A stretch of 48,402 bases of DNA, from assembly GCA_015064745.1 (NCBI GenBank), contig SVRR01000012.1, positions 1 through 48,402 on the forward strand, in the 5' to 3' direction. A model generated the notes under the pieces. That model saw only the letters and a list, made by a program, of their open reading frames with translations, was not told the DNA's origin and ran no database searches. Origin of the DNA: Oscillospiraceae bacterium (GTDB lineage Bacteria > Bacillota > Clostridia > Oscillospirales > CAG-272). The translations under genes were made by a program, and so were the position numbers. Below, piece after piece: positions 4,511-48,387 of this stretch. The stretch's first letter is position 1, and each line of letters starts with the position of its first letter.

Positions 4511-4820
4511 TTTGGCACCGAGGCGTGTGCTTGTCTTGATACGAGGCGTGTGCTTGTCTTGATACAAGTCGGCGTCGCTTCGCTAAAAGAAAAAAGAAAG
4601 GCTTTAACCTTGCATAAATTCTATTATCTACGTACCAAATCAATGCGGAGCATTGTATGGAATCAACACAAAGTGTTGTATGGAATCCGTCGCAGACGGT
4701 ATGGAATCAAGACCGAAGACGGAGAAATACAAGCTATCGCTTGATGCCATACGCGGACGAGCCGCAATTCCATACAATTCGCTATGCGAATTGATGCCAT
4801 ACCAAGCCCTTCGGTCTTGG
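4511..4820. repeat. Hairpin array A (mirror-image mosaic repeat)
   Basis: The gap between cls and the tmRNA terminator holds no gene but a structured element. It opens with TTTGGCACCG, then GGCGTGTGCTTGT, and ends with CTTGGATAAA. Between 4641 and 4820 lie at least seven small hairpins: 4641-4655 (CAATGC/GCATTG), 4664-4678 (CAACAC/GTGTTG), 4687-4699 (CCGTC/GACGG), 4730-4743 (CAAGC/GCTTG), 4753-4765 (GCGG/CCGC), 4775-4793 (CAATTCGC/GCGAATTG) and 4802-4820 (CCAAG/CTTGG). Spacers in the left half read TATGGAAT three times (4656, 4679, 4700); in the right half they read ATGCCATA, ATTCCATA, ATGCCATA (4744, 4767, 4794), which are the reverse complement. The layout matches array B at 48044-48258. 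Confidence 0.85.
4520..4565. repeat. Exact 23-bp tandem duplication in array A leader
   Basis: Two perfect head-to-tail copies (4520-4542 and 4543-4565) of a unit that starts GAGGCGTGTGC and ends GTCTTGATAC. Array B has only one copy of the corresponding GGCGTGTGCTTGT word (48054-48066). The duplication therefore looks recent and specific to array A. Confidence 0.9.
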
Positions 4821-4822
4821 AT

Positions 4823-4858
4823 AAATAAAAAGACGAACCGAAGTTCGTCTTTTTATTT
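4823..4858 (-). terminator. Terminator of the tmRNA gene
   Basis: Perfect stem AAAAAGACGAAC / GTTCGTCTTTTT with a TTCG tetraloop on the minus strand, followed by an AT-rich tail. It begins directly at the encoded CCA end of the tmRNA, so processing and termination are tightly linked. Confidence 0.9.
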
Positions 4859-5252
4859 TGGTGGAGGTGACGGGAATCGAACCCGTGTCCGAAAACCTCT
4901 TGATATGACCTTCTCCGTGGGCAGTCTGTTTTTTGAAATTCCCCCATCGGGACGCGAGCAGACACGCTTGACGGCAGGGTAGCCCTTTTTTGCCTGACGG
5001 GCTCAAGGGCGAAAGACCCGTGCAGGTTCACCGCTTGTTTGACGCTCAGTCCTCCGTCGCGGTCATCGGAGGAGGAACGGGTGGCATAAGAGCCACAGCA
5101 CCGCTAACTGACAGCCCCGAAGGGCGGTCAATTAGGCAGCCATTGCAACAGTTCTGTTGTCGTTTAATTTTAAGGTTGGACATTTTAACGGGATTATCCT
5201 GCCCGCCACGCTTATCATACCGCAAAATCCCCGTCGAAACCATGGCACCCCC
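4859..5252 (-). ncRNA. ssrA: tmRNA (ssrA)
   Basis: One-piece transfer-messenger RNA that rescues stalled ribosomes. The 5' end GGGGGTGCCATGGTTTCGAC and the 3' end GGTTCGATTCCCGTCACC followed by TCCACCA are the tRNA-like halves; GGGGGTG pairs with CACCTCC as a 7-bp acceptor stem with one G-T pair, and CCA is encoded (4859-4861). The tag frame ends NDNRTVAMAA then TAA, a good AA-ending proteolysis tag. The resume codon is not obvious to me: upstream codons in this frame read CCA ACC TTA AAA TTA. Several later helices rich in GC fit pseudoknots PK2-PK4. The length of 394 nt is normal. Confidence 0.95.
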
Positions 5253-48043: not shown

Positions 48044-48258
48044 TTTGGCACCGTGGCGTGTGCTTGTTCCTTGTATAATCACGCCGAAGGCGTGGATATC
48101 ATCAATGCGAAGCATTGTATATCACCAACACGAAGTGTTGTATATCATCAAGCCGCAGGGGTATGCACGCTAAAGCGTGATGAGATACAAGGGCGCAACG
48201 CGCCCTTGATGATATACCGACTTGCGTTGGATGATATACCAAGCCTGCGGCTTGGATA
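48044..48258. repeat. Hairpin array B (mirror-image mosaic repeat)
   Basis: Second copy of the element at 4511-4820. It opens with TTTGGCACCG and GGCGTGTGCTTGT and ends CTTGGATAAA. Hairpins: 48080-48094 (CACGCC/GGCGTG), 48103-48117 (CAATGC/GCATTG), 48126-48140 (CAACAC/GTGTTG), 48166-48179 (CACGCT/AGCGTG), 48188-48208 (CAAGGGCGC/GCGCCCTTG), 48217-48230 and 48239-48255 (CCAAGCC/GGCTTGG). Left-half spacers read GATATCAT, TATATCAC, TATATCAT; right-half spacers read ATGAGATA, ATGATATA, ATGATATA, the reverse complement. Most loops are GAA or similar trinucleotides. It is not a gene. Confidence 0.88.
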
Positions 48259-48296
48259 AAGAAAAACCACAGTCGAATTCGACTGTGGTTTTTCTT
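48259..48296 (-). terminator. Terminator of tRNA-Ser
   Basis: Perfect stem AAGAAAAACCACAGTCG / CGACTGTGGTTTTTCTT with loop AATT. It starts at the encoded CCA end of the tRNA and ends at the edge of hairpin array B. Confidence 0.9.
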
Positions 48297-48387
48297 GGCG
48301 GAGAGATAGGGATTCGAACCCTAGATGCAGTATCAGTGCATACACGATTTCCAGTCGTGCGCCTTAGACCAACTCAGCCATCTCTCC
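48296..48387 (-). tRNA. tRNA-Ser (anticodon GGA)
   Basis: 92-nt class II tRNA with encoded CCA (48296-48298) and discriminator G. Acceptor stem GGAGAGA/TCTCTCC, anticodon stem CACGA/TCGTG with loop CTGGAAA (anticodon GGA, reads UCC/UCU), a long variable arm typical of serine tRNA, and GGGTTCGAATCCC in the T arm. The promoter lies beyond the window. Confidence 0.96.

Follow-up and report, generated by a model that had tools for sequence, protein, structure and literature searches.

Hairpin arrays with mirrored words in an Oscillospiraceae genome are linked to genes of the IVP/S23 four-helix-bundle family

A REP sequence combines a conserved palindrome with a short tag, likewise conserved, at the base of the palindrome, and the REP, BIME and REPIN elements associated with RAYT are dispersed, oriented hairpin units, often in inverted pairs, that have a partner gene. 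Avd, the accessory protein of diversity-generating retroelements, forms pentamers of four-helix bundles and belongs to one superfamily with the intervening-sequence protein (IVP, or S23) encoded by 23S rRNA intervening sequences (IVS) of Coxiella, Leptospira and others. In the Coxiella IVS, tandem heptamers (GACAGAT) lie just upstream of the S23 ORF, and the same source mentions an old idea that the IVS ORF served mobility and calls both the role of IVP/S23 and the spread of rRNA intervening sequences unclear (PMC4990558). Heptameric direct repeats such as TAACTGA are described from Beggiatoaceae, cyanobacteria and Bacteroidetes, where they are mostly intergenic and often upstream of start codons; horizontal spread was suggested with no mechanism evident, and the main text mentions neither 'helix bundle' nor 'S23' (PMC4679880).

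We examined a 48,402-nucleotide stretch of an Oscillospiraceae genome (contig SVRR01000012.1; the window) that carries two hairpin arrays, A (4511–4820) and B (48044–48258), with coordinates verified letter by letter. A preliminary description had likened them to REP/BIME mosaics moved by RAYT transposases and proposed a search for a Y1/RAYT gene in the same genomes. The likeness is apt, since these arrays are also dispersed, oriented hairpin units with inverted halves and a partner gene, but RAYT as the agent did not survive the search: Y1 (PF01797) matches are present in 17 of the 59 genomes searched and absent from the host genome (G000; 1.70 Mb in 41 contigs, 89.9% complete), and the partner is an IVP/S23 gene instead of a Y1 transposase. 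Unlike REP, moreover, the stems vary within and between arrays and the part that is kept is an 8-nt linker word. The arrays work somewhat like REPIN/RAYT systems but, with no Y1 gene in their own genome, are not members. With the 23S rRNA IVS they share the protein family PF05635 in gene-bearing copies, and they differ in anatomy and site: hairpins alternate with the words, which are mirrored, arrays without a gene occur throughout the genome, and A and B lie outside RNA genes (tmRNA and tRNA-Ser) rather than inside 23S rRNA. The TAACTGA-type repeats (PMC4679880) are 7-nt direct repeats like the IVP-linked heptamers described below, without the hairpins that separate the words of our arrays. 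A partnership of the Avd kind was rejected because the host genome has no match to reverse transcriptase (PF00078), which is present in 13 of the 59 genomes.

Both arrays are chains of short, mostly perfect hairpins with 8-mer words between them, and in both the 8-mer of the left half gives way to its own reverse complement in the right half (Table 1). The hairpin-and-word portion of array A starts at 4641. Array A lies past the 3' end of the tmRNA gene and array B past the 3' end of tRNA-Ser, in each case with a perfect terminator-like inverted repeat between. The mirroring of words between halves, as first described, was borne out letter by letter and by shuffling of two-base blocks, in which none of 500 shuffles of A and none of 500 of B reached the observed mirror-word score. 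The opening TTTGGCACCG.GGCGTGTGCTTGT common to both arrays is likewise real, and a BLAST search of the genome with A finds it again in B only. The words within an array, which had appeared to be kept identical, are alike rather than identical: in A, two of the three right words depart from a perfect mirror by one base, and array B has variants in both halves. Beyond what had been described, the last hairpin (4802–4820; 48239–48255) matches the central 11-mer (4708–4718; 48149–48159), which is the reverse complement of its loop and 3' arm in A and in B despite their differing sequences. Folding is strong (z-scores of −5.7 for A and −8.0 for B), and minimum-energy folds adopt the suggested long stem with hairpin arms in part only. 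At the gathering score, an Rfam search of the window matched only the tmRNA and two tRNAs, and a known structured RNA family for the arrays was accordingly rejected.

Table 1. Coordinates of arrays A and B and of their neighbours in the window.
Feature	Position	Strand	Description
Array A, leader	4511–4564	+	24-nt opening common to B; 23-nt exact tandem duplication (4519–4541, 4542–4564)
Array A, left half	4641–4707	+	Hairpins CAATGC, CAACAC, CCGTC, each followed by word TATGGAAT (4656, 4679, 4700)
Array A, central 11-mer	4708–4718	+	CAAGACCGAAG, reverse complement of the last hairpin's loop and 3' arm
Array A, right half	4730–4801	+	Hairpins, then words ATGCCATA (4744), ATTCCATA (4767), ATGCCATA (4794)
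Array A, last hairpin	4802–4820	+	CCAAGCCCTTCGGTCTTGG, ATAAA after it
Inverted repeat, between array A and tmRNA	4823–4858	.	Perfect, A and T runs at its sides; resembles a terminator on either strand
tmRNA gene	4859–5252	-	3' end towards array A
Array B, leader	48044–48067	+	24 nt in common with A
Array B, left half	48080–48148	+	Hairpins CACGCC, CAATGC, CAACAC; words GATATCAT (48095), TATATCAC (48118), TATATCAT (48141)
Array B, central 11-mer	48149–48159	+	CAAGCCGCAGG, reverse complement of part of last hairpin
Array B, right half	48166–48238	+	Three hairpins; words ATGAGATA (48180), ATGATATA (48209), ATGATATA (48231)
Array B, last hairpin	48239–48255	+	CCAAGCCTGCGGCTTGG, ATAAA after it
Inverted repeat, between array B and tRNA-Ser	48259–48296	.	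Perfect, 19 nt; terminator-like
tRNA-Ser (gga)	48296–48387	-	3' end towards array B

Further copies are present both in the host genome, where more arrays or array pieces lie on contigs C8 (two), C22, C37, C14, C10 and C41, and in relatives. A scan of public sequences for the two conserved hairpins gave 40 loci, from records titled Clostridia or Oscillospiraceae in 39 cases and uncultured bacterium in one; for 26 of the 40 the title points to a sample from a herbivore gut. In the usual layout of the family, left-word hairpins, at most three or four of them, lead into the central 11-mer, and about three right-word hairpins, the last hairpin, ATAA and a terminator-like hairpin follow. A tRNA on the facing strand follows in 25 of the 32 readable arrays (those of the 40 in which the end of the array could be read together with 100 nt or more of what follows), at a distance of 44 nt or less in 24, and 12 specificities are represented. 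One terminator-like hairpin was found again in 17 of 277 loci; in most of these it adjoins an array, at tRNAs that differ in specificity, and so it seems to travel with the array.

Arrays without a gene are common. The pattern GTATNNNATC-gap-GTATNNNATC has matches in 34 of the 59 genomes, the host included, with a maximum of 82 in one genome and a single match in all controls together; pairs of the word CAATTCA have matches in 31 of the 59, against 5 in all controls. The host genome has one CAATTCA array beside an IVP gene on contig C39 and two elsewhere (C10, C15). Sixteen stretches from four genomes (G026, G028, G032 and G034) have closely similar layouts and different flanks, and some dispersed arrays sit between hairpins that look like terminators. 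ARAGORN detected no tRNA in 20 stretches from G034, G015 and G000 that hold array islands or other arrays, nor in a second set of 18 array stretches, which speaks against the reading preferred below. Mirrored words recur in many of these copies, so that neither of the conditions named beforehand as refuting the description, a lack of further copies or of mirroring in them, is borne out. One-direction half arrays exist as well, in G034: two of them (L258, L263), with words in a single direction, recur on several contigs. An array island in G015 (L268) mixes units of different words.

Six of the 40 scan loci have, at the left end and read away from the array, an ORF that begins M(A/S)(K/N)NYLL (sought among the two longest ORFs adjoining that end). 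The family is PF05635/TIGR02436, the 23S rRNA intervening-sequence protein, a four helix bundle. A 60-residue piece scored 23.4 bits against PF05635, below the cut-off of 33.8, while the complete protein passes TIGR02436 (four helix bundle protein), and a relative encoded on contig C8 of the host genome passes both models; the protein of locus L061 reaches 70.5 bits with PF05635 and 72.9 bits with TIGR02436 (cut-off 24). The family is present in 47 of the 59 genomes, including the host, and arrays A and B themselves have no IVP gene. A solved relative, 2rld (E = 1.1e-15), was deposited with five chains, and for the S23 protein of Xanthomonas a homopentameric assembly of four-helix bundles is quoted in PMC4990558. 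A defence system was rejected, as PADLOC gave no match for the two IVP proteins searched. A search of viral contigs with IVP protein patterns matched no stretch; in two human faecal phage records (L278, L279) a mirrored-word array precedes an IVP gene, and in L278 a tRNA-like sequence, seen by eye, lies beyond the array.

An array was flagged directly upstream of 55 of the 67 IVP genes of the order, 51 of them through mirrored 7-mers, compared with 0 of 335 shuffles. These 67 are what remained of 73 loci after six with less than 200 bp upstream were dropped; L064 is a repeat of L062, and one flag is open to doubt, that of L223, where the repeat overlaps a tRNA. Most of the 12 unflagged regions have degenerate or half arrays by eye. 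By type of mirror, the 67 regions give reverse complement in 51, plain reverse in 1 and complement in 4. A sigma-70-like promoter lies between array and start codon, within 53 bp of the codon, in 18 of the 67 (17 of 1,340 shuffles), and in several of these 18 the nearest word touches the −35 box.

The word of the array follows the clade of the protein. Words assigned to protein clades are TATATCAT, TATGTAAT/TATGGAAT, CAATTCA, TCATAAC, ATATAAC, ATATCGC, ATTTCAT, AACTTCA and others, and the protein tree requires 14 word changes, where the minimum possible is 11, the shuffled mean is 41.9 and 0 of 200 shuffles are as low. The tree holds 62 proteins, 57 of them labelled (10 by eye, with similar words merged), and is built from few columns, and 30 of its 59 inner branches are open. 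The agreement is in part simple joint inheritance of neighbouring DNA; gene-bearing copies from one clade occur at different tRNAs. Word variation within the TATATCAT family is hardly any, and the pairing of left with right words therefore rests on differences between families. We also compared genomes with and without a matching gene, that is, a full-length IVP of the TATATCAT/TATGTAAT subfamily at 53% identity or more, some of the genomes being incomplete. At least two TATNNNAT-type pattern matches occur in 9 of 11 genomes with and 12 of 25 without such a gene in the host's genus (36 genomes), and in 2 of 4 with and 0 of 19 without outside the genus. The frequency of TATNNNAT-type arrays in genomes without the gene counts against action in trans.

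The hairpin loops have a polarity that tracks the orientation of the word, and the array unit thus has a direction. Among distinct units of the TATATCAT/TATGGAAT arrays, those with left words have loops of the type G..A in 32 cases, T..C in 0 and other in 11, and those with right words have G..A in 3, T..C in 21 and other in 28 (Fisher 1.5e-12, a value that is only a guide because the units are related). Across 51 mirrored arrays, with orientation set per array by majority, loop type agrees with word orientation in 103 loops and disagrees in 3, where coin flips give about 81 of 106. Polarity is unanimous in 33 of the 36 arrays with at least two informative loops, which 0 of 20,000 coin-flip runs equalled. 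When the 46 decided words are read on the G..A-loop strand, TCA is present in 33 and TGA in 1. GNA triloops closed by C-G are exceptionally stable in DNA. Hairpin length varies from 11 to 22 nt and the word is constant at 8, so the words would come into register only with the hairpins folded out; this favours single-stranded DNA or RNA as the working form, and the flip in polarity between halves disfavours a single transcribed strand.

Across the phylum, PF05635 is present in 24 of 119 genomes, the host included, and no mirrored array was flagged at 26 of 30 IVP loci from this set, which led to a test for tandem heptamers. Many IVP genes beyond the order have tandem 7-mers upstream instead, and in other phyla these abut the start codon. 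Among lags 4 to 12, lag 7 was best in 24 of 32 upstream regions; 14 passed the threshold at lag 7 and none at any other lag, as against 11 (lag 7) and 4 (each other lag) of 436 control windows. The test was devised after inspection of the regions, which include near-copies (L107/L119, L111/L121); the 32 exclude two loci of the host's order (L114, L115) and include four added plasmid loci in which heptamers were already visible by eye. These four, plasmids of Bernardetia (L280), Treponema (L281), Nostoc (L282) and Dolichospermum (L283), have tandem heptamers before their IVP genes. The Dolichospermum heptamers (AAATTCC, AATTACG) are reminiscent of short tandem repeats that occur in cyanobacteria, and the Nostoc gene lies between cas2 and cas1. 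Overlapping matches to AGGAGNN arrays number 142 in G154, 8 in G069 and 6 in G101, with none in the five other genomes searched. In G154 and G069 AGGAGNN is the exact word of the genome's own IVP gene and the heptamers also occur away from that gene; G101 has them in tandem at two places, and its own IVP gene has a related word. Five IVP loci lie inside 23S rRNA genes and one lies inside a bacterial RNase P RNA gene (L109:1229–2003), and tandem heptamers also precede genes at such sites.

The arrays are a real and widespread class of repeat with an unexpected partner, undescribed as far as the literature searched shows; titles and the openings of abstracts contained no link between hairpin arrays and IVP genes, in a coverage that lacks bioRxiv and most subscription journals. 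Our preferred reading, to which we give an even chance of being right, is that an IVP gene and its own word array form the two parts of a selfish element, of which A and B are copies without the gene. The cis part would be the array of oriented units, each a short hairpin with a 7–8-nt word, in two inverted halves; the trans part would be the small IVP/S23 four-helix-bundle protein, encoded directly downstream of the array in complete copies, with each protein clade paired to its own word. Shown here are the tie between gene and array, the match of word to clade, the scatter of gene-less arrays, the polarity of the loops and the siting next to stable RNA genes; movement, binding, action in trans and the single-stranded state are inferred. 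A ring of five protein chains, as in the solved relatives, may grip several words of its own array on single-stranded DNA (or RNA) from which the hairpins are extruded, and this grip would help gene-bearing and gene-less arrays alike to be copied to new places. The favoured sites would be those just past the terminators of tRNA and tmRNA genes; related genes lie within 23S rRNA and RNase P RNA genes. We know of no DNA cutting or joining, or other catalytic activity, in the IVP/S23 family, and a helper function would therefore be needed; reverse transcriptase was not found in 46 of the 59 genomes, the host among them. On a bolder view, which we advance tentatively and think somewhat likelier to fail than to stand, IVP/S23 proteins would be the spreaders of short-word arrays across bacteria, heptamers and mirrored hairpin arrays would be two forms of one transposase-less system, rRNA intervening sequences would be its members inside RNA genes, and the word would be an address read in single-stranded form. 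Because gene and array are tied clade by clade, the role of IVP/S23, the spread of the IVS and the spread of the heptamers become testable by one assay of binding and copying.

The chief rival to a selfish element is a regulatory role, in which the IVP protein would bind the words before its own gene and the dispersed arrays would be its regulon targets, as DNA or as mRNA leaders. The position of the array directly upstream of the IVP gene, the promoters in 18 of 67 regions with a word at the −35 box in several, and the heptamers that abut start codons in other phyla are all consistent with such a role. We nevertheless judge it unlikely: the place of the array relative to the promoter is not fixed, being beyond the promoter in those 18 and 10–40 bp from the start codon in others, dispersed arrays lie past tRNA 3' ends or between terminator-like hairpins, and the variable hairpin lengths would spoil helical phasing on duplex DNA. 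The same 18 promoters bear on a further alternative, since they would exclude the array from the IVP mRNA. If the array were instead transcribed into a structured RNA, in which paired words close a series of four-way junctions and which forms an RNP with the IVP protein, the same loop type should prevail all along the one RNA strand, yet polarity flips with the word and on either strand half of the hairpins carry the complement of the G..A loop. These features, together with the lack of an Rfam match, make a structured RNA improbable in our estimation in spite of the strong folding, the match of the central 11-mer to the last hairpin across differing sequence versions and the neighbourhood of stable RNA genes.

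Arrays could also arise passively, as products of replication slippage and template switching at hairpins, processes that would maintain both the likeness and the mirroring of the words, with the IVP gene a bystander or hitchhiker. Hairpins are known to be perfected by template switching, which might mirror words as well, and tandem arrays and mosaics do exist. Such an origin leaves unexplained why one gene family stands behind the arrays, why the words track its clades, why lag-7 repeats occur at IVP genes elsewhere and why one layout recurs at many places, and we regard it as distinctly improbable. Least credible is movement of REP/BIME-type elements by a RAYT (Y1) transposase. The hairpin units are oriented, occur as inverted pairs and are dispersed between genes, which speaks for it, but no Y1 gene was found in the host, where it could lie only in the missing part of the assembly, or in the array-rich genomes G015, G016, G020, G026 and G034, and we consider this reading very improbable.

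Returning to a mobile two-part element, we compared its putative sites among relatives. Array presence varies at both tmRNA and tRNA-Cys. Past the tmRNA (within 420 bp), arrays are present in 3 of 24 same-genus loci (those with at least 300 bp readable, out of 30 fetched), namely in the host genome, G001 and G002, and the word of the G001 array is unlike that of A. The tRNA-Cys site has at least four word types across species (G000, G008, G009 and G176; also G003), and no array in G019. Comparison of the sites yielded no clean empty site, the tRNA-Cys site of G019 being occupied by another insertion, next to which lies an inverted 20-nt copy of the tRNA-Cys end (L155:843–862). Six relatives (L125, L128, L130, L140, L142 and L151) share another module, with a CGGCGaagcCGCCG hairpin, downstream of tmRNA, perhaps a different insertion. 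In four arrays (L037, L042, L047 and L067) the left flank contains, by eye, a fragment similar to the end of tRNA-Gln with its T-arm, which gives the impression that the 3' end of an earlier tRNA was displaced.
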